Source: an uncultured Schlesneria sp. (lineage in GTDB: Bacteria > Planctomycetota > Planctomycetia > Planctomycetales > Planctomycetaceae). Taken from it: a stretch of DNA of 64,000 bases. Below, one piece after another: positions 12,220 to 37,452 of this stretch. Both the position numbers and the translations under genes were made by a program. Location: positions 1 through 64,000 of the forward strand of contig CAIOKO010000234.1 of assembly GCA_903858935.1 (NCBI GenBank). The letters run 5' to 3'. The notes under the pieces are model-generated. The model had not been told where the DNA came from. It worked only from the letters and a program-made list of their open reading frames with translations, and made no database searches. How positions within the stretch are numbered: the stretch's first letter is position 1; each line of letters opens with the position of its first letter.

Positions 12220-12449
12220 ATTTAAAAATTCGTTTGGTGAGAATTCTGTGAAAAAGAGTAGGAAACTGGTTTTCCCTTTCCGATTCGATTACCGTAACGT
12301 TGAATTGATCGACAACAATTGATACGGATTGGATCGAAAATGAGTTGGGGCGTTCGCCCGTTGTTCTTGGTCCGTATTCGATTAGATCACATTTCAGCGC
12401 ATCGCAATTCGGCGATGCGCGAGTCATTCGACGAGTTAGGGTTGGTACG

Positions 12450-14114
12450 ATGAATGGTGAAGAGACGGTGCCTGTTGTTGCGCAAGGTCAGGCAGAACAG
12501 ACGGTCAGTCATGCTGTACATGGTGATGCAACTGCCAGCGAAACTGTGGTCGTATCCCCGGTTGCAAAGGTAATTGCATCAACGGACGCCCATTCTGATG
12601 TGGCTGTCGCGGCAGTTGAACCGATCGCAAAGCCTGTCGAAGCTGCCGCCGCAGCCGTCGAAGAAACTCGCAAACGTCCCGTTCTCAACCCTAATGTTGA
12701 CGAGCACCAGGCGCGTGCCGTGGGAAGTATCGGGGCCGAAGTCGAAACCGAAGCAGTTGCGGTTGCCGCTGCTGCTGCCGCACAAACTGAGGCAGCGATC
12801 ACATCCAGAGGACCCGTTGGACAAATCGAGCTTCCTCCGAAACAGGTGTCTCTGGATGACGGACTTGAGCAGGAAATCGAAGCTGCGATGTCCGGTGAGA
12901 TGACTGCACCGACGGCTCCTCCTGTCGGTGCCACAACACCCAATCCGTCATCAACCGCGGAAGAGCTTCCCGCCTCAGAAGAGCAATTGGAAGCCGGTAC
13001 GAAGCTGAAGGCCAAAGTGCAAAGTGTCACCGCTGACGACGTTTTCTGTGAAGTTGGATACCGCTCCCCGGGTGTCCTTCCGGCTCGACAATTTCCACAA
13101 GGAAAACAACCTCGTGTTGGCGAAGAGTTTCTTGTGATTGTTGAAAAATACGATCCTGAAAACAGCGTCATTCTTGTCAATCTACCCAAGGCAACTCGTA
13201 AAGCACGTGGAAATTGGGAAGAACTGACCGTCGGCCAGGTGACGGAATGTATCGTCAATAAGACGAATAAAGGTGGCTTAGAAGTCACTGTCGGTGGCTT
13301 GCGAGCATTCTTGCCCGCGAGTCAGGTTGATCTCGGTTTTGTGAACTCCATGGATGCACTGGTCGGTCAGAAGCTGGTTGTGCAAATCACGGAATTGAAC
13401 CCGGCCAAGCGGAACCTCGTGGTCAGCCGTCGATCGGTCATGATTGCGGAACGAAAAGAGCTTGCCGGAGCGTTCTGGGAAAAGGTTGAAGTCGGTCAGC
13501 AGTTTTCCGGAACCGTGAAGACGATCAAGGATTATGGTGTGTTTGTCGATTTGGGGGGGGCTGACGGCTTCCTGCACATCGGAGAAATGAGTTGGACACG
13601 GGTAAAACATCCGTCTGAAGTCTTGAACGAGGGACAGCAGTGCGACGTTGTCGTTTTGTCGCTTGACCGCGAAAAGCAGAAGATCGGCCTGGGAATGCGG
13701 CAGTTGTCCCACAATCCGTGGGGCAGTGTCGAATCCACTTATGCTGTCGGAAAAGAAGTCAAAGGCAAAGTGACGAGAATCACCGACTTCGGTGCCTTCG
13801 TCGAACTGGAGCCAGGCGTTGAAGGTCTGATTCACATCAGTGAGATGGACCATCAGCGAATTCGCAAAGTCACCGATGTCGTCAATGTCGGTCAAGATGT
13901 CCAGGCGCAGGTCCTTGAAGTTGCTCGTGATCGTCAGCGAATCAGCTTGTCATTGAAGGCCCTGAAGCAGAAGCCCGAAAAGCCGAAGGACGAAGATCTT
14001 GCACCGGGCAAGGGCGAGGCCTACGAGCGGAAGCGTAAAGAACCACTTCGTGGCGGAAAGACGATGGGGAGCGGCGGAGGACTCTTCGGCAACCCTGGTG
14101 ATTTCAACCGCTAA
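12450..14114 (+). CDS. rpsA: S1 RNA-binding domain protein (ribosomal protein S1-like)
   Basis: A protein of 554 residues from the ATG at 12450 (the frame is open back to 12345). The first ~180 residues are a low-complexity Ala/Val/Glu-rich extension. Four S1-type OB-fold repeats follow; the last two are canonical, with KTIKDYGVFVDLGGADGFLH and RITDFGAFVELEPGVEGLIH. The C-terminus is basic and glycine-rich. Ribosomal protein S1 binds mRNA on the 30S subunit and helps initiate translation. Four rather than six repeats plus a long Ala-rich N-terminus differs from the Escherichia coli protein but is compatible with S1 homologues from other phyla. A general S1-domain RNA-binding protein is the alternative. 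Confidence 0.82.
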   Translation: MNGEETVPVVAQGQAEQTVSHAVHGDATASETVVVSPVAKVIASTDAHSDVAVAAVEPIAKPVEAAAAAVEETRKRPVLNPNVDEHQARAVGSIGAEVETEAVAVAAAAAAQTEAAITSRGPVGQIELPPKQVSLDDGLEQEIEAAMSGEMTAPTAPPVGATTPNPSSTAEELPASEEQLEAGTKLKAKVQSVTADDVFCEVGYRSPGVLPARQFPQGKQPRVGEEFLVIVEKYDPENSVILVNLPKATRKARGNWEELTVGQVTECIVNKTNKGGLEVTVGGLRAFLPASQVDLGFVNSMDALVGQKLVVQITELNPAKRNLVVSRRSVMIAERKELAGAFWEKVEVGQQFSGTVKTIKDYGVFVDLGGADGFLHIGEMSWTRVKHPSEVLNEGQQCDVVVLSLDREKQKIGLGMRQLSHNPWGSVESTYAVGKEVKGKVTRITDFGAFVELEPGVEGLIHISEMDHQRIRKVTDVVNVGQDVQAQVLEVARDRQRISLSLKALKQKPEKPKDEDLAPGKGEAYERKRKEPLRGGKTMGSGGGLFGNPGDFNR

Positions 14115-30558: not shown

Positions 30559-30963
30559 TCATCGGATTAATAAAACCCGGAGTTCACCGCATTTATCGTA
30601 GTGGTAAGCCAATTGACCTGGAATGCAACTGATGATTGTTCCCCACCCTGCCAATTCGGTCTGTGAAATCGCCTCCGATAATTCCAATTGGCGGCCATCC
30701 AAGCCCAATGTGGATGTGAGTACATAACAAGACTCTGGTGCCCCATGAGATTTGAGCACACTTACGACGTCAGCTTTTGAAGACAACTGCGTCGCAAACC
30801 GATGATCCAGGTCTCGGCAGTGGTTCAGTTTGTCCAAGATCGTGCATCGGCGCTTGGGGGACGCAAGCGATTCCAGCCATCGTGAGCGACGTTGAGGATT
30901 GAAAAATGCACAAATTGTCGCTTCTTCGCGCGGATGCATTTTCAAAAAAACTTTGGATTTCAT
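30559..30963 (-). CDS. Uncharacterised protein coupled to rtcA
   Basis: A 134-residue, probably cytoplasmic protein with no signal peptide or membrane segment. Its ATG overlaps the TAA stop of rtcA by one base (TAATG), the arrangement of translational coupling, so it is the last gene of the Ro60-rtcB-rtcA operon. Features visible: a basic N-terminal half with FFNPQRRSRWLESLASPKRR and LNHCRDLDHRFA, a central predicted alpha/beta stretch with VVSVLKSHGAPESCYVL, and a C-terminal GTIISCIPGQLAYHY segment. I recognise no family or catalytic motif. Position suggests a role in RNA repair or quality control, for example binding of RNA ends or of Ro60/RtcB, but that is inference from context only. Confidence 0.72.
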   Translation of the reverse strand: MKSKVFLKMHPREEATICAFFNPQRRSRWLESLASPKRRCTILDKLNHCRDLDHRFATQLSSKADVVSVLKSHGAPESCYVLTSTLGLDGRQLELSEAISQTELAGWGTIISCIPGQLAYHYDKCGELRVLLIR

Positions 30964-32009
30964 TACTGGCGTTTCACGGAAACCTCAACCGTGTTGTGTT
31001 CCCCTAATCGAGTGACGTGCGTTGTCACTCCCAGGCATTGACGTAGAACGTCAATCTGCGTCGAGGAATGTCGAGTCAACGCAGTCGTACGAATCGTACT
31101 TTCTTCTCCCGACTGCCAGGCACTGATTCCCATGAGTAACAGCAACTGATCGGCGAGATACTCTCCGACGGGGACGTCTGACGCGAGGTACTTTCGCATT
31201 GCGTCGACCGCGCGGCGCGATACGGTTTCCGCTCTGACGCCGTGTTCGCCGACCCCTGTAAAAACTTCGGTGACCGCATCGAATTCAAGTTCGAGGACAA
31301 CAATGTTACCAGGTCCTTGCGCTGCCACTTGCTCGGTCGAAATCCGATCTTTTTCCCAACCCGTCAGCCGCAATAATTCTTCGGCCTCTCGAATGGCGAT
31401 TAGCTCCGGAAGATTCGACAACAGGATCCGGCACGTTCGCTGATTAAGCGATCCCCGTTGTAGCAAGGACAAACGTTGCAGTTTTCGTGTCGGTTCAATC
31501 TCGACGACAAAACGACCGCCCCCCGCGGGATAGAATCCCGGTCGTTCCAAAAATGAAGTCACTTTTGGACCCATCCGATTGACAATCGGGAGATACGATT
31601 TCAACAAAAAATCGAACGGCGGTGCCCAGGGATTATGAGTCCCGCCTTCCAGAATCAGACGTGATGGGCCGTCGGCGACCAGCAGTGCTGGAAGGACCGT
31701 TTGTAAAACCAGAGTTGCGCTTCCCGCTGTTCCGACACTGAAGGTGTAATCGCCAGGAGTCACCTGGCATGGACGAAACGTTAAGGACGTTGAACCAATC
31801 GAATCGCCGGTGATTTCGGCACCACTGATTTCCGCCGCCGCTCGAACGGCGGTCAGGTGTTGCCGCATTAAACCTGGCTTTGTTCGACCGGCTCGCAGTT
31901 TGTCGATCGAAACGCCCCGACCGGTGATCATCGCCAGTGCCAGCGATGACCGGACGATCTGGCCGCCTCCTTCACCTTGTGAACCATCAATGGAAATCAT
32001 GTCAGACAT
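30963..32009 (-). CDS. rtcA: RNA 3'-terminal phosphate cyclase
   Basis: Converts RNA 3'-phosphate to 2',3'-cyclic phosphate through a covalent AMP-histidine intermediate. The protein is 348 residues, the normal length. The N-terminus MISIDGSQGEGGGQIVRSSLAL is the family signature. Also seen: RAGRTKPGLMRQHL, the GTAGSATLVLQTVLPALL segment, GGTHNPWAPPFDFL and FYPAGGGRF. Near the C-terminus TRHSSTQIDVLRQCLG contains the histidine expected to carry AMP. It lies 56 bases downstream of rtcB and overlaps the next gene by one base. In enterobacteria rtcBA is switched on by RtcR, and an rtcR gene is present here at 35848. Confidence 0.96.
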   Translation of the reverse strand: MSDMISIDGSQGEGGGQIVRSSLALAMITGRGVSIDKLRAGRTKPGLMRQHLTAVRAAAEISGAEITGDSIGSTSLTFRPCQVTPGDYTFSVGTAGSATLVLQTVLPALLVADGPSRLILEGGTHNPWAPPFDFLLKSYLPIVNRMGPKVTSFLERPGFYPAGGGRFVVEIEPTRKLQRLSLLQRGSLNQRTCRILLSNLPELIAIREAEELLRLTGWEKDRISTEQVAAQGPGNIVVLELEFDAVTEVFTGVGEHGVRAETVSRRAVDAMRKYLASDVPVGEYLADQLLLLMGISAWQSGEESTIRTTALTRHSSTQIDVLRQCLGVTTHVTRLGEHNTVEVSVKRQ

Positions 32010-32065: not shown

Positions 32066-33550
32066 TCAGTCATCGGCCGAATCACCATCTTTAATAACAA
32101 ACCGAGCTTTCAATCGTGCGACTTCCGTTGCAAGACCTGCTGTCTTCACACTTCGAAGGACTTCTTCGAAATCCTTGTAGGCAGCCGGAGCTTCATCCTT
32201 GGGGTAAGATCGGCAATTGGTCAGGATATCGGCCTGATCAAATGACTGATCGATCGATGCCTGGTCCAGTTCCCGAATGGCTCGCTTGCGACCCAATGCC
32301 CGACCGGCGCCGTGATTCACACTGTAACAACTGATCGCCGCACCGGGGTCCGCCACCATGACACTCGATCCCGCCTGGGGGTTCCCTGGTAACAAAATAG
32401 GATTCCCAGTTTCGGCATAGATCGTTCCTTTCAACGCGTGATGTCCCGCCGGAAAGGCTCGAGTCGCCCCTTTTCGGTGAACCCACGCCACGCGGTTCTC
32501 AACGATTTCCTTTCGAGCAATATTGTGACTGATAAAGTACACGAGGTTTCCCGTGGTTCCTGGAATCACTTCCTGAAACGCATCTAGCACCAATGCATTG
32601 ATCAGCAGGTGGTTCACCGTCGCAAAATTGGCTCCGAGGGACATATCGTCAATGTAGGCATTCGCTTCGGCGGTTCCCAGTGGTGCATAAACCAGCTCAC
32701 GATCACCACCCGGTAATGGGATATCCCAGGTCGAGAATTTCTTCTGTAACGACTTGAATTGATGCTCAGCCAGAAAATGCCCAAGTCCGCGAGATCCACA
32801 GTGCGACAGAAACGCAACGTGGTTATCCCGCAGCCCGAAGACATCGGCGACCTGGCGTGCTCGGTCGTTGTCTTCAACATGGACGACCTCGCATTCTCCA
32901 AAGTGATTTCCGCCTCCGTAGGAGCCAAGCTGACGGATCTTGCCCTCAAACTTCGGAGATAATTCATGCTTCAGGTGTTGTGCCAAGCGAATCTCAAGCG
33001 AAGTAATCGTGTCGTCGTGCCCACGATGAACCGCATCTTCACAATGATTCGCCCATTCGGCAGGAATCCCGATCGCTTCGCAGACTTCTGCAGACGCTCC
33101 CTCAACGACGACTCGACGTCCCAGTTCAGCATCAACCCGGCGGGACTTCTTCACGTGCCGCTGGCCTCGACCGGCTCCGGTGGGAGTCCGTTCGCAGATC
33201 GCATTAATGAGTGCTCGACGGACACTTTTTTCGATGATGGCATCGGCCGGTAAATCCAGTTGAAGCAGGCTCATCGAACACTTGATGTCGACGCCAACGG
33301 GACCGGGATAGATATGTGTCGGTGAAACCATGACGCATCCGACAGGTGCACCGTATCCACAGTGGCCATCAGGATTCAGGACAAGGTCCGTCACACCGGG
33401 TGCCAGCCGGGAATTGACCGCTTGTTGCAAACAAACATCGTCAAAAGTGTCTCGGATGGCGGCCGTTCCAATCACCGTCACCGGTTTGGTATTGGCACCG
33501 GTTGGCAGGATTGCAGTTGCTTCGTCGGTGGGAATGATTTCGTAAACCAT
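32066..33550 (-). CDS. rtcB: RNA-splicing ligase RtcB
   Basis: Joins RNA ends carrying 2',3'-cyclic phosphate or 3'-phosphate to 5'-hydroxyl ends, using GTP and manganese. From the ATG at 33550 the protein has 494 residues. Motifs: PDGHCGYGAPVG (about 60-71), GPVGVDIKC with the metal-ligand Asp and Cys (about 83-91), GGGNHFGE, LSHCGSRGLGH, VHRKGATRAFPAG, and SVNHGAGRALGR containing the histidine that is guanylylated. The frame stays open to 33619, but that extension overlaps the end of the structured RNA at 33596-33774 and encodes an unlikely peptide, so the later ATG is used. No good Shine-Dalgarno sequence precedes it, which suggests coupling to processing of the upstream RNAs or a leader-dependent start. 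Confidence 0.96.
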   Translation of the reverse strand: MVYEIIPTDEATAILPTGANTKPVTVIGTAAIRDTFDDVCLQQAVNSRLAPGVTDLVLNPDGHCGYGAPVGCVMVSPTHIYPGPVGVDIKCSMSLLQLDLPADAIIEKSVRRALINAICERTPTGAGRGQRHVKKSRRVDAELGRRVVVEGASAEVCEAIGIPAEWANHCEDAVHRGHDDTITSLEIRLAQHLKHELSPKFEGKIRQLGSYGGGNHFGECEVVHVEDNDRARQVADVFGLRDNHVAFLSHCGSRGLGHFLAEHQFKSLQKKFSTWDIPLPGGDRELVYAPLGTAEANAYIDDMSLGANFATVNHLLINALVLDAFQEVIPGTTGNLVYFISHNIARKEIVENRVAWVHRKGATRAFPAGHHALKGTIYAETGNPILLPGNPQAGSSVMVADPGAAISCYSVNHGAGRALGRKRAIRELDQASIDQSFDQADILTNCRSYPKDEAPAAYKDFEEVLRSVKTAGLATEVARLKARFVIKDGDSADD

Positions 33551-33595: not shown

Positions 33596-33774
33596 CCAGC
33601 ACGAAGACAAGAGTGACAAAACGTTTAACGCGCTCTATCCGCTGAGCTACCGCCCCAGGTTTGTGACTGGCGTTAACCAGGCCGCGCGGCTTTGCCGCAA
33701 TAGGGCAGGTGGGAATCGAACCCACGACCTCGTGCTCCATAAGCATGTAGTTCTATCGGCATTCGTCGTGCTGG
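33596..33774 (-). ncRNA. YrlA-type bacterial Y RNA, copy 2 (permuted tRNA mimic)
   Basis: A structured RNA of about 179 bases in the Ro60-rtcB gap. The two ends pair (CCAGCACGA with TCGTGCTGG, then a mismatch and two more pairs). The 5' strand carries GACGAATG (33760-33767), a match to the Ro60-binding consensus GNCGAANG of bacterial Y RNAs. Next in transcription order come a T-arm (33709-33725, GTGGGTTCGATTCCCAC), the 3' acceptor strand CTGCCCT, a 40-45 base insert with GCGGC/GCCGC and CTGG/CCAG hairpins, the 5' acceptor strand GGGGCGG and a D-arm (33632-33647). T before D with the acceptor end closed is a tRNA opened at the anticodon. It shares a GAATGCCGAT...ACTACATG block with copy 1. Confidence 0.82.
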
Positions 33775-33785
33775 ATTGTGTTAAG

Positions 33786-33915
33786 ACGAGATCGACAAGG
33801 AGGCATGAGACGCTTCATTTGCTCTACCGCTGAGCTACGCATTCTTGGAAGAACACGGCGGGATTCGAACCCGCGACACAATGATCCATGTAGTCCCATC
33901 GGCATTCGACCTCGT
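33786..33915 (-). ncRNA. YrlA-type bacterial Y RNA, copy 1 (permuted tRNA mimic)
   Basis: A structured RNA of about 130 bases that starts 14 bases after the Ro60 stop codon. The ends form a 10-base-pair stem (ACGAGGTCGA with TCGATCTCGT, one G-U pair). The 5' strand contains GTCGAATG (33903-33910), matching the Ro60-binding consensus GNCGAANG. Then follow a T-arm (33858-33874, GCGGGTTCGAATCCCGC), acceptor strands CGTGTTC and GAATGCG joined by a short loop, and a D-arm (33821-33835, GCTCAGCGGTAGAGC). The acceptor stem has seven pairs including two G-U. Bacterial Y RNAs are known to tether Ro60 to the exoribonuclease PNPase and to mimic tRNA. No 3' CCA or anticodon arm is present, so this is not a functional tRNA. 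Confidence 0.86.
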
Positions 33916-33929
33916 TTTACTCCTTCATC

Positions 33930-35507
33930 TCAAATTGAGATCTTTTCGATCTCACGAACCCAGTGATTCTCGGTAAAGCAATTGCTCGCCACGTCTGAGA
34001 TCAGCTTAAAGACCTGGTCGCTGAATCCTCCGACATTCACGATGTCGTTCCGTTCGACAGTTTGAGTCGTTCCAGAAGGCTGAATGTCGATGCAAACCAT
34101 TTTTGCTTCAGGATTCCGTTGCTTGAACAGTTCCCATTGATTCATCGTTTCGGTGGCACTTCCACCCCATAGCCCGTATTGGAGTGAGTCGACCCAGGAT
34201 TCGTTATCTGAAACGTACACAATCAAATCTCCTTTCGCCTTTCGCCGGTTAAGTTCGTAAAGCGGCGCACTGCAATTCGTTCCTCCTGAAGGTAACTCGG
34301 ACAATTTCCGAGCATTCGTCATCACGGAATCCCGAGGATTCAATGGGCACTGCACCACATTGGATTCGAACGGAATCACTTCCGCCTGCGGGTTTTTCCG
34401 TAACATGGCTGCGGCAACGAGCGCTGCAATATCCAGGCAACGAACCTTCGACGTGGCCCCTTCTCGGACTCCCGTGACCGGAGAGCGCATCGAACCTGAG
34501 ACGTCAGGAAAAACATAAATCGGTCCTTCGAATGCGGGAACATTTTCAATCGCAATCTCCATCGCGTCCTGCAATGCTTCCCGGATTAGGTTTGGCAATG
34601 ACGAACTGATATTCAGATACGCAACCAGTAATTGATAAGGGAAAACTCGAGCTCGCGTAATTTGATCGCGGTCACGCAAACGGTCTGCCACGATTTGAAC
34701 CATTTCTGGCTGCTGAAATACGGCCTGCCGCTGAAACATATTCAAATTCATGCGTGTCGTTTGCCACGAAGCGTTTCGAGCGATCGTACGCCAGTCGTTC
34801 TTCGTTAATGGCAAGGCGGTCAACATCTGGAACGGAACATCCGGAACGGGAACCGCACCAGCGTTTGTATTCCGCTTGAATTTTTCATAAGCCTGAACTA
34901 CCGGCGGTAACATTGTTTTGTCATGTTCACGACCGATCAAATATCCGAGCAAGGCCGCTCGTGACGCATTTGCTGGCTTGGGGTGAACCATCTTGATCAC
35001 GTCAGCCAGCGATGGCGAATTTCCAATTGAGCCGTTGAATAACTGCTCATCGGATCGACCTTCCAACCACTGGCAGACAAGTCGTTTTGGCAAGGTTCCC
35101 AGGCTCTTTCGACCAATCACTCCCGAACGAATCATCTGTACGAAGTTGCGAAGCATCTTCGGGTTATCGATCACTCGGTCGAAAATCTCGGCCATCAAGC
35201 CAGGACTCTTCACCGAAAGCACGGCACACAAGAGTGCGGGCATATCTTTCATGTACCCTTTCTGGCGAACATAAAGAGCCGTGCGAGCGATAAATTCTGG
35301 CGAAACTTTTGAGCAGAGGGCGAGGACCTGGCCAAGTTGTTCCTCGGCGTTGGCATAGAATGTCTGGTTAAAACAACCCGTGCTTGCATACTGAGACAAA
35401 GCCTGCTCAGCCGACCGCTGATAAGCCTGTCCGCCCGCTTCATTCACAGCGTCGGTGTGCGGCAGAAATCGGCCAGCAATCGTCGAGAACAGGTTCTTGT
35501 TCGCCAT
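33930..35507 (-). CDS. rsr: Ro60/Rsr-like TROVE domain protein
   Basis: A 525-residue bacterial orthologue of the Ro60 autoantigen, a ring-shaped RNA-binding protein that holds Y RNA on its outer surface and the ends of misfolded RNA in its cavity. Residues about 20-320 are the helical TROVE domain (for example ARTALYVRQKGYMKDMPALL and ARNASWQTTRMNLNMFQR). The C-terminal part is a von Willebrand A-like domain with the metal-ion site DVSGS at 335-339. It is the first gene of the operon, followed at once by two Y RNA-like sequences and then rtcB and rtcA. This order matches the Salmonella rsr-yrl-rtcBA arrangement. The leader upstream contains a mobile-looking element and a sigma-54 promoter. 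Confidence 0.95.
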   Translation of the reverse strand: MANKNLFSTIAGRFLPHTDAVNEAGGQAYQRSAEQALSQYASTGCFNQTFYANAEEQLGQVLALCSKVSPEFIARTALYVRQKGYMKDMPALLCAVLSVKSPGLMAEIFDRVIDNPKMLRNFVQMIRSGVIGRKSLGTLPKRLVCQWLEGRSDEQLFNGSIGNSPSLADVIKMVHPKPANASRAALLGYLIGREHDKTMLPPVVQAYEKFKRNTNAGAVPVPDVPFQMLTALPLTKNDWRTIARNASWQTTRMNLNMFQRQAVFQQPEMVQIVADRLRDRDQITRARVFPYQLLVAYLNISSSLPNLIREALQDAMEIAIENVPAFEGPIYVFPDVSGSMRSPVTGVREGATSKVRCLDIAALVAAAMLRKNPQAEVIPFESNVVQCPLNPRDSVMTNARKLSELPSGGTNCSAPLYELNRRKAKGDLIVYVSDNESWVDSLQYGLWGGSATETMNQWELFKQRNPEAKMVCIDIQPSGTTQTVERNDIVNVGGFSDQVFKLISDVASNCFTENHWVREIEKISI

Positions 35508-35541
35508 GATGTTTCTCTCTTTTTAAAGCAACGCGATCCGT

Positions 35542-35677
35542 CGAAACCCCACCCCCCCCTGTGGGGGTGGTCATCGGGCCTTTGCGCCAGCAAGCGCCAA
35601 AATCCACCGATACGATGGAATCCAAATCCCTAGGGCAAAGCCCCGTTAACCACCCCCGCAGTGAGGGTGGGGTTTCG
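35542..35677. repeat. MITE-like inverted-repeat element, copy 1, in the Ro60 leader
   Basis: The ends CGAAACCCCACC and GGTGGGGTTTCG are inverted repeats. The interior carries GTGGGGGTGGTCATCGGGCC and the mirrored GGGCAAAGCCCCGTTAACCACCCCC. A second full copy lies at 38299-38432, and the right end recurs at 45711-45759. At 136 bases with no coding capacity it looks like a non-autonomous mobile element. It lies between the sigma-54 promoter and the Ro60 start codon, so it should be transcribed as part of the operon leader and can fold into a long hairpin there. Confidence 0.75.
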
Positions 35678-35698
35678 TTTCCGATGGAATCGCTAAAG

Positions 35699-35713
35699 GC
35701 ATTGCACGTGCCA
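35699..35713 (-). promoter_or_regulatory. Sigma-54 (-24/-12) promoter for the Ro60-rtcBA operon
   Basis: Read on the reverse strand the sequence is TGGCACGTGCAATGC. It matches the sigma-54 consensus TGGCACG-N4-TTGC with one mismatch, keeping GG and GC at the required spacing. The expected start of transcription is near 35687, about 180 bases before the Ro60 ATG. A sigma-54 promoter is what is expected for an operon controlled by RtcR, whose gene is divergent and starts 135 bases away. Confidence 0.7.
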
Positions 35714-35847: not shown

Positions 35848-37452
35848 ATGTTGAAGCAGCGGCCGATCGTCGTGTTTGGAATCTTGGGAACTTTGCTCGA
35901 CCGAGCCAAAGCGGGGGAGGATCGTTGGCTGAAATGGAGGCCGAGTGTCGCCGTCTGTCAGCATGAAGATCTGCTGATTACGCGGTTTGAACTGTTTCAC
36001 GAACCGAAAGAGCTGCCACTAGCCCAGTCGGTGATCGCGGACATCCAATCGATTTCGCCCGAGACGGACGTTCGCTTACATAAGCTTCATCTGAGAGATC
36101 CCTGGGATTTTGAAGAAGTGTTTGGATCGTTCCACGACTTCTCGGGAAAATACCCATTTGCGACGGATGACGAAGATTATTTGATCCACATCACGACGGG
36201 GACTCACGTTGAACAGATCTGCCTGTTCCTGTTGGCCGAATCGCGGCATCTTCCCGGACGGCTTTTACAGTCATCTCCTCCACGACGTCACAACGTCGAT
36301 CCTGGTGGCTACAAGATTATCGATCTGGATCTTTCCCGTTACGACGCATTGGCCAAACGCTTTTTCACAGAGCGGCAGGAAGGACTCGTCTTTCTGAAGT
36401 CGGGGATTGCTACTCGCAACGCGGCCTTTAATGGACTGATCGAACGTATCGAACGCGTGGCGATTGCCAGTACGGCTCCGCTATTACTGACAGGCCCGAC
36501 CGGAGCGGGAAAATCACATCTGGCTCGCCGAATATACGATCTGAAACGTCGGCGCGAGCAAGTCGGCGGCGGTTTTGTGGAGGTTAACTGCGCCACATTG
36601 CGAGGGGATCAGGCGATGTCGGCTTTGTTTGGTCATATCAAAGGAGCTTTTACGGGTGCGACCGCTCAACGACCCGGTCTGTTAAAAACCGCTGACGGTG
36701 GTCTGTTGTTCCTGGACGAAATTGGAGAACTGGGGCTCGACGAACAGGCAGTGCTGTTACGCGCTATTGAAGAACATCGGTTTCTTCCCGTCGGAGCCGA
36801 CCACGAAGCCGAAAGCAATTTTCAGTTGATCGCGGGGACGAATCGTGACTTGCAGTCAGGCGTGGCCACGGGGAGATTTCGAGAAGACCTTTTAGCACGG
36901 ATCAACCTCTGGACATTCCGACTTCCCGGCCTGGCCGAACGCCGCGAGGATATCGCTCCGAATCTAGACTATGAACTCGAACGTCACGTTTCGTCCACAG
37001 GTCGCAAAGTGACAATGAACCAACAGGCGCGCGAGGCTTTCTTAAGATTCGCCGAATCGCCGACCACCCTCTGGTCGGCAAACTTTCGAGATCTCGGCGC
37101 GGCAGTCACTCGAATGGCAACAATGGCTTCTGGTGGCCGAATTGCCGTTGCCGAAGTTGAAGAGGAAATTGCCAGACTCAATTCGTCATGGCGACGGCAA
37201 CCGGATCAACAGTCGGACGTTTTGTCAGAAGTCCTCAGCGCGGAACAACTCGCTTCACTTGATCTGTTCGACCATGTCCAACTGGCGGAAGTCGTACGAG
37301 TGTGCCGTCAATCGGCCAACCTCTCGGCAGCAGGTCGAACCCTGTTCGCATCGTCACGAGCGAATAAGGCTCAACCCAACGACGCTGATCGCTTGAGAAA
37401 GTATTTAGCCCGGTTCGGTTTAAGCTGGGCTCAGATTCATCCGGAGGATTGA
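35848..37452 (+). CDS. rtcR: Sigma-54-dependent activator of RNA repair genes (RtcR)
   Basis: A 534-residue transcription activator. The N-terminal ~180 residues form the RtcR regulatory domain, a CARF-type ligand-binding fold (VVFGILGTLLDR at the start, HITTGTHVEQICLFLLAE in the middle). It is known to hold the AAA+ domain inactive until it senses RNA fragments such as those with cyclic-phosphate ends. The AAA+ domain follows: Walker A GPTGAGKS (216-223), sigma-54 contact motif GAFTGA (266-271), Walker B GGLLFLDEIGEL (284-295). The C-terminal region should carry the DNA-binding helices (LAEVVRVCRQSANLSAAGRTLF). It is divergent from the operon it is expected to control. Confidence 0.95.
   Translation: MLKQRPIVVFGILGTLLDRAKAGEDRWLKWRPSVAVCQHEDLLITRFELFHEPKELPLAQSVIADIQSISPETDVRLHKLHLRDPWDFEEVFGSFHDFSGKYPFATDDEDYLIHITTGTHVEQICLFLLAESRHLPGRLLQSSPPRRHNVDPGGYKIIDLDLSRYDALAKRFFTERQEGLVFLKSGIATRNAAFNGLIERIERVAIASTAPLLLTGPTGAGKSHLARRIYDLKRRREQVGGGFVEVNCATLRGDQAMSALFGHIKGAFTGATAQRPGLLKTADGGLLFLDEIGELGLDEQAVLLRAIEEHRFLPVGADHEAESNFQLIAGTNRDLQSGVATGRFREDLLARINLWTFRLPGLAERREDIAPNLDYELERHVSSTGRKVTMNQQAREAFLRFAESPTTLWSANFRDLGAAVTRMATMASGGRIAVAEVEEEIARLNSSWRRQPDQQSDVLSEVLSAEQLASLDLFDHVQLAEVVRVCRQSANLSAAGRTLFASSRANKAQPNDADRLRKYLARFGLSWAQIHPED

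Follow-up and report, generated by a model that had tools for sequence, protein, structure and literature searches.

Why should one RNA-repair operon encode two RNAs shaped like circularly permuted tRNAs, and why should one of the two carry a long insert at its acceptor end? The question is raised by a locus in the window, the 64,000-nucleotide stretch of DNA from an uncultured Schlesneria sp. that we analysed, where the minus strand reads Ro60, Y RNA copy 1, Y RNA copy 2, rtcB, rtcA. The original prediction had named Ro60, RtcB, RtcA and RtcR as the neighbours of the RNAs, and Pfam and NCBIfam matches confirmed all four. Ro60/Rsr (33930..35507, minus strand) has TROVE and vWA_Ro60 domains; its Pfam matches were PF25045 (E 7e-16) and PF05731 (E 7e-8), and its match to NF041674 (E 2e-18) lies under that model's cut-off. 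The RNA ligase gene rtcB follows the RNAs (32066..33550, minus strand, ATG at 33550; PF01139, E 4e-100), then rtcA for the RNA 3'-terminal phosphate cyclase (30963..32009, minus strand; NF003246, above cut-off), and rtcR, encoding the sigma-54 activator of the RNA-repair operon, is divergent (35848..37452, plus strand; NF038308, 809 bits, above cut-off).

All the parts of an RtcR-controlled RNA-repair operon are thus present, namely rtcB, rtcA, a divergent rtcR and, as a pattern match only, a sigma-54 promoter. The candidate promoter TGGCACGTGCAATGC (35699..35713, minus strand) lies 206 bp upstream of the Ro60 start. A sigma-54-type site also stands upstream of Ro60, at a near-equal distance, in the two nearest relatives (L009 and L010), and this conserved position fits RtcR control; a similar site occurs in L013, L014, L016, L018 and L020. 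We looked for a sigma-70 promoter for the Y RNAs and found none, and only 14 nt separate the end of Ro60 from the start of copy 1. The Ro60 of the window is 88-91% identical to those of uncultured Schlesneria genomes. Ro60 is found in 53 of the family's 170 genomes and in 7 of the 15 listed for the genus, which makes the operon patchy. Two other features of the locus were seen. An ORF of 134 aa immediately 3' of rtcA (30559-30963, minus strand) had no match in Pfam or NCBIfam, and a large imperfect inverted repeat, GAAACCCCACC...GGTGGGGTTTC, lies between the Ro60 start and the sigma-54-type site (about 35540-35680), with similar elements near Ro60 in L009 and L010.

The two RNAs of the Ro60-rtcB gap belong to one known family. 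Rfam RF02553 (YrlA) matched both end to end (model positions 1-114 of 114), copy 1 with 63.3 bits (E 6.3e-14) and copy 2 with 51.5 bits (E 1.7e-10). Neither attains the gathering cut-off of 69 bits, a limit that reflects the curators' choice and not any property of the RNA; the Y RNAs at the corresponding locus of eight relatives score 69-73 bits. There was no further significant YrlA match in the 7.9 Mb genome. Both copies have the same architecture. A stem that joins the two ends of the RNA carries G-N-CGAAUG (copy 1: GTCGAATG; copy 2: GACGAATG), and with it come a T-arm, an acceptor of 7 bp and a D-arm, T standing before D. Copy 1, a short form of 130 nt (33786..33915, minus strand), has its end stem at 33915-33906 with 33795-33786, its T-arm at 33874-33858, its acceptor at 33857-33851 with 33844-33838, closed by the 6 nt TTCCAA (33850-33845), and its D-arm at 33837-33821. 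Copy 2, a long form of 175 nt (33598..33772, minus strand), has the corresponding end stem at 33772-33763 with 33607-33598, with one C-U mismatch, the T-arm at 33725-33709, an acceptor (33708-33702 with 33656-33650) that holds a 45-nt insert, and the D-arm at 33649-33632. The tandem YrlA-type pair, its permuted-tRNA architecture with a closed acceptor, and an acceptor-end insert in copy 2 that copy 1 lacks had all been predicted, and all were borne out.

The prediction had also held that pairing is kept where the stem bases differ, and compensatory changes among relatives agree with this. In 14 aligned short forms 93% of cells are paired and 19 of 32 pairs have changed on both sides; no shuffle equalled the observed covariation, and sliding the partners by one to three columns reduced pairing to 31-46%. 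The 14 aligned long forms have 96% of cells paired and 10 of 33 pairs changed on both sides, with 40-50% pairing in the slid controls. In both alignments the end-stem strands CGAAUG and UUGUCG are conserved columns flanked by compensatory changes. The folding energy of the single copies was not unusual against shuffles (z -1.0 and -0.6), so the evidence for the structure is covariance and homology and not stability.

The order of the arms invites comparison with permuted genes for functional tRNAs, since T precedes D and the acceptor contains an intervening sequence, both of which are found in the permuted tRNA genes of algae (PMC3978253). An anticodon loop is absent, the ends instead forming a Ro60-type stem, and ARAGORN found 0 tRNA genes in the window; we rejected this explanation, to which we give next to no chance. 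A two-piece tmRNA was rejected too: only T-arm fragments matched the tmRNA model and ARAGORN found 0 tmRNA genes.

At most of the Ro60 loci that we looked at, whether from Planctomycetota or from Variovorax and others, there are at least two Y RNAs; the motif scan behind these counts gave zero matches in shuffled sequence. We parsed the acceptor junction in 82 Y RNA modules and kept 74 after filtering and removal of duplicates. The acceptor loop is either 4-9 nt long, as in copy 1, or at least 12 nt, as in copy 2, and the inserts of the long class span 12-84 nt. Planctomycetota Y RNAs therefore form two classes, often at one locus, a division that we present as new. The number of short forms varies among relatives, and G109 has two short forms and one long. 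The earlier proposal that the two copies have different partners appears to gain support, since the two classes recur together at many planctomycete loci and differ in just those features of the acceptor end that the prediction had singled out.

The long inserts carry a processing signature. Of 38 inserts, 22 start A73-Y74-U75 (A-[C/T]-T), a triplet that stands at 24 of 807 internal positions (3%; p 4e-24, a value that, like our other p-values, overstates the evidence because the genomes are related). Host tRNAs look much the same at these positions, with Y74 in 47 and T75 in 45 of the 51 distinct genes found, and no encoded CCA. Comparison between the classes has a partial confounder, in that a tight loop limits which bases can close it. 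T75 occurs in 30 of 40 long forms and in 7 of 34 short ones, and the base ahead of the 5' acceptor strand (-1) is a pyrimidine in 32 of the long and 10 of the short. At 10 of the 12 loci with both classes there is a long form with an A-Y-T start, which no short form at these loci has. The comparisons with internal positions and with host tRNAs are unaffected by the confounder. A73 is missing from 12 of the 40 long forms. In the 14 aligned long forms, which come from several genera, A73 and U75 are invariant, although the remainder of the insert defies alignment from one genus to another.

The acceptors of the two classes also evolve differently. Six of seven acceptor pairs show compensatory changes in the short forms, where it is the pairing that is conserved and not the sequence. 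Only one of seven does so in the long forms, even though six of ten pairs of their end stem do, which implies that long acceptors are held in sequence. Of the covariation expected of both stems, that of the end stem was accordingly found in either class and that of the acceptor in the short class; the long-class acceptor always pairs and varies little. Taken with the processing signature, this suggests that the long acceptor and its junction are recognised as sequence, as in a precursor tRNA.

These observations bear on the simplest account of the locus, that of an ordinary YrlA pair in which both RNAs stay intact and tether Ro60 to PNPase or gate the ring, the insert being a neutral or protein-binding loop extension that is never processed. 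Closed acceptors are usual in YrlA (the Rfam consensus has 2 positions there), the host encodes a PNPase, and both insert hairpins are kept in four Schlesneria genomes. A mere loop extension would not be expected to hold its first three bases as in tRNA trailers while the remainder diverges, nor to sit on an acceptor conserved in sequence, and we think this account unlikely, if not greatly so.

Where might such an insert come from? That of copy 2 (33657..33701, minus strand) opens with ATTGCGGC-AAA-GCCGC and in this resembles the trailer of the host's tRNA(CAU) gene; its second hairpin is CTGG-TTAACG-CCAG, and its hairpins are retained in L009, L010 and L022. Over 41 positions, made up of the 3' tRNA half, the first seven insert bases and the 5' acceptor of copy 2, the host tRNA(CAU) gene (G000:C127:4138-4210) is identical at 36, where the 51 host tRNAs average 23.7 (sd 3.3) and the second best reaches 29. 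No single parent tRNA stood out for copy 2 in a comparison without trailers; tRNA(CAU) was singled out once trailer and acceptor were added. Both copy 2 and the tRNA(CAU) gene run on into a hairpin, GCGGC-NNN-GCCGC, that occurs 13 times in the 7.9 Mb genome, including once after tRNA(CAU), once after another predicted tRNA (Lys) and once in copy 2. In G140 and G109 the hairpin is again common to the tRNA trailer and the Y RNA insert, and the start of the insert is the same. In G130 the hairpin is missing from the tRNA trailer; the insert of the long Y RNA there is unrelated, and the acceptor of that RNA is Ala-like. Our reading is that the tRNA-like half of copy 2 was replaced by a permuted copy of a host tRNA gene together with its trailer; the homology is good, though a stretch this short leaves some doubt, and the likeness looks recent in the Schlesneria group. 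Resemblance to one particular host gene for a tRNA, trailer included, offers a route to such mimics.

The same likeness opens the way to another explanation, as the processing signature could have been inherited from the captured tRNA and not kept for use. The A-Y-U of copy 2 would then be a relic of a tRNA(CAU) gene and trailer that recombined into the locus and were permuted, with nothing acting on the signature now. That the trailer hairpin is common to tRNA gene and Y RNA in the same three genomes, and not in G130, is what such a capture would leave; a relic would hardly persist as A73 and U75 in other genera, where the inserts have fully diverged and the acceptor is a different, Ala-like one. 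We consider a pure relic improbable.

Sister loci provide a second kind of likeness to host RNA. The family has a second Ro60 clade, about 45% identical, which is found where tRNA arrays end. In L081, L083, L084, L085 and L075 the array of tRNA genes is large and has Ro60 and a Y RNA array at its end, with 43 tRNA genes beside Ro60 in L083 and 35 in L084; such a set, which reaches 43 genes and includes almost every isoacceptor, looks like a tRNA-replacement island. A viral contig (L203, IMGVR_UViG_3300027917_000034) has a Ro60 flanked by 35 tRNA genes. Each second-clade locus has several Y RNAs, one type of which carries sequence of 23S rRNA H69-H71. We found this type on the plus strand in L083 (6708-6892), L082 (7400-7584), L084 (7991-8177), L079 (8447-8644) and L162 (about 1285-1472), on the minus strand in L169 (1974-2180) and L075 (about 12315-12492), and also in L081, L085 and L155. 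Its members have ATGACGGTCCTAAGGTAGCGA and an H71-like hairpin enclosed by Ro60-type end-stem strands; in G097, 29 of 29 nt of the Y RNA are identical to the genome's own 23S. Seven aligned members show compensatory changes in the Ro60-type stem and in the hairpin at the place of H71, and some members seem to have their rRNA piece in a form circularly permuted at H69, which places GGCCGUAA at the 3' end. A strict pattern matched 4 of 392 genomes across the phylum; since it overlooks members already known, it cannot serve to estimate how these RNAs are distributed. We found no description of a Y RNA imitating 23S in the open literature, whose coverage did not extend to the main bacterial Y RNA papers, and we know of no described Y RNA with H69-H71 sequence. 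The rRNA-imitating Y RNAs suggest that the principle of mimicry is wider than tRNA. Separately, the Y RNAs at the Ro60-rtcB locus of G145 have among them a tRNA-like gene (L088, 6500-6571, minus strand) that ARAGORN calls tRNA-Arg(TCG).

Does the acceptor of the long forms carry an amino-acid identity? Many long forms of the family have GGGGCCG/CGGCUCC-A, with the G3-U70 pair of tRNA-Ala. This pair is present in 8 of the 14 aligned long forms and not in copy 2, which has G3-C70 and G1-U72. As a rule for all long forms G3-U70 was rejected (9 of 40 long against 5 of 34 short, p 0.55); the pair marks one group of them. Fresh capture from tRNA-Ala in other genera found no support, as a pattern search returned Y RNAs, mostly with no near-identical tRNA. 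Pairs at 1-72 that are not Watson-Crick are more frequent in long forms (15 of 38) than in short ones (4 of 34; p 0.015). Bacterial initiator tRNAs have a mismatched 1-72 pair. The second-clade long Y RNAs L026, L027, L028, L031, L034, L036 and L169 have acceptors starting CGCG... and a mismatched 1-72 (C with A, C or U). Three other Y RNAs (L013 1207-1355, minus strand; L015 207-355, minus strand; L018 4228-4364, plus strand) have an acceptor and D-arm that read as tRNA-Gln-like (GGGGCG-TGGTGTAACGG) and not tRNA-Ala-like, a likeness seen on reading the sequence that a direct comparison with the tRNAs of the host did not bring out. Since copy 2 lacks the G3-U70 common to many long forms, no single amino-acid identity is conserved, and charging is at most a lineage-specific possibility.

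How, then, might the two RNAs of the window work? To our mind it is an even call whether they are two types of effector, copy 1 a sealed mimic and copy 2 a permuted pre-tRNA-like RNA that RNase P and RNase Z can open. Both YrlA-type Y RNAs would be co-produced with Ro60, RtcB and RtcA from the RtcR/sigma-54-controlled operon. We infer that Ro60 grips each by its end stem (CGAAUG...CUUGUCG), which would take the place of the tRNA anticodon arm, and that the pair functions in a response to tRNA damage. The other end, a circularly permuted tRNA elbow with its acceptor, would be offered to tRNA-recognising enzymes such as PNPase. The acceptor of copy 1 ends in a tight loop that would leave no room for opening. 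The insert of copy 2 appears to retain the marks of tRNA-precursor processing, a discriminator-like A73, a Y74-U75 trailer and a pyrimidine at -1, so the host's RNase Z and RNase P could excise it, yielding a two-piece Y RNA with an open acceptor end, comparable to the outcome in permuted tRNAs and two-piece tmRNAs. The host encodes an RNase Z-like protein that scores under that model's cut-off. Work by Chen in 2014 reportedly found Y RNAs to be substrates of several tRNA enzymes, so an experiment on cleavage of a YrlA by RNase P may already exist. In permuted tRNA precursors, removal of the intervening sequence is ascribed to RNase P and tRNase Z, enzymes that recognise acceptor and T-arm (PMC3978253); copy 2 has both in the order of such a precursor and may likewise mature into two pieces.

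The company of RtcB, RtcA and RtcR in the operon could be read differently, with the permuted tRNAs mimicking a tRNA broken in the anticodon loop and so occupying anticodon nucleases, RtcB or the RtcR sensor, and not serving Ro60-PNPase. Both RNA ends do leave from the anticodon side, and YrlA was proposed as a competitive nuclease inhibitor in the Salmonella study (PMC7790460). A decoy of this kind would not need the Ro60-type stem motif, which is among the most conserved parts of these RNAs, and we regard it as very improbable.

The reading of one sealed and one openable effector has a bolder extension, which we offer tentatively and rather doubt: that copy 2 and the remaining long forms are split Y RNAs, the insert being cut out by RNase P and RNase Z, CCA added and the two-piece permuted tRNA carried by Ro60, chargeable in some lineages, and that Y RNAs are a platform onto which RNAs captured from host genes are grafted in permuted order. 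An Ala-like G3-U70 with A73 would then be the basis of chargeability in those lineages, and tRNA(CAU) here and 23S rRNA H69-H71 in the sister loci would be examples of grafts. If the open form is real, Ro60 would present a genuine tRNA acceptor end beside tRNA-repair enzymes. To our knowledge the division of Y RNAs into sealed and openable forms is new, and the mechanism can be tested: with a natural pair of both in one operon, the purpose of the tRNA-like end could be probed by deleting or swapping one module.

Several known systems can be set beside this locus. With YrlA (RF02553), whose structure 6CU1 is from Salmonella (as cited in PMC8394870), both copies have in common the end stem, T-arm, acceptor and D-arm in permuted order; in contrast to the tight acceptor closure of the YrlA consensus, copy 2 has a long insert with a pre-tRNA signature. 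Rsr binds the Y RNA end stem and the tRNA-like end can tether PNPase, a tethering demonstrated only in Deinococcus (reviewed in PMC8394870). The window has a Ro60 orthologue and Y RNA, and the host genome a PNPase gene, as in the Rsr-Y RNA-PNPase complex RYPER of Deinococcus radiodurans; unlike there, the genes sit in an rtcBA operon. Algal and archaeal permuted tRNA genes and two-piece tmRNA (PMC3978253) also place the 3' half first, and the intervening sequence at their acceptor can be taken out by RNase P and tRNase Z, but here there is no anticodon and no tag reading frame, and a Ro60-type stem replaces the anticodon arm. The closest parallel makes the arrangement less novel than it was originally scored, because Salmonella Typhimurium has an rsr-yrlBA-rtcBA operon with tandem Y RNAs and RtcR, which senses tRNA fragments (PMC7790460). 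Both loci have a Ro60 orthologue, tandem Y RNAs, rtcB and rtcA together, an adjacent divergent rtcR and sigma-54 control. What sets the present operon apart from that of Salmonella is that both copies have the T- and D-arm module and that copy 2 carries a 45-nt trailer-like insert.
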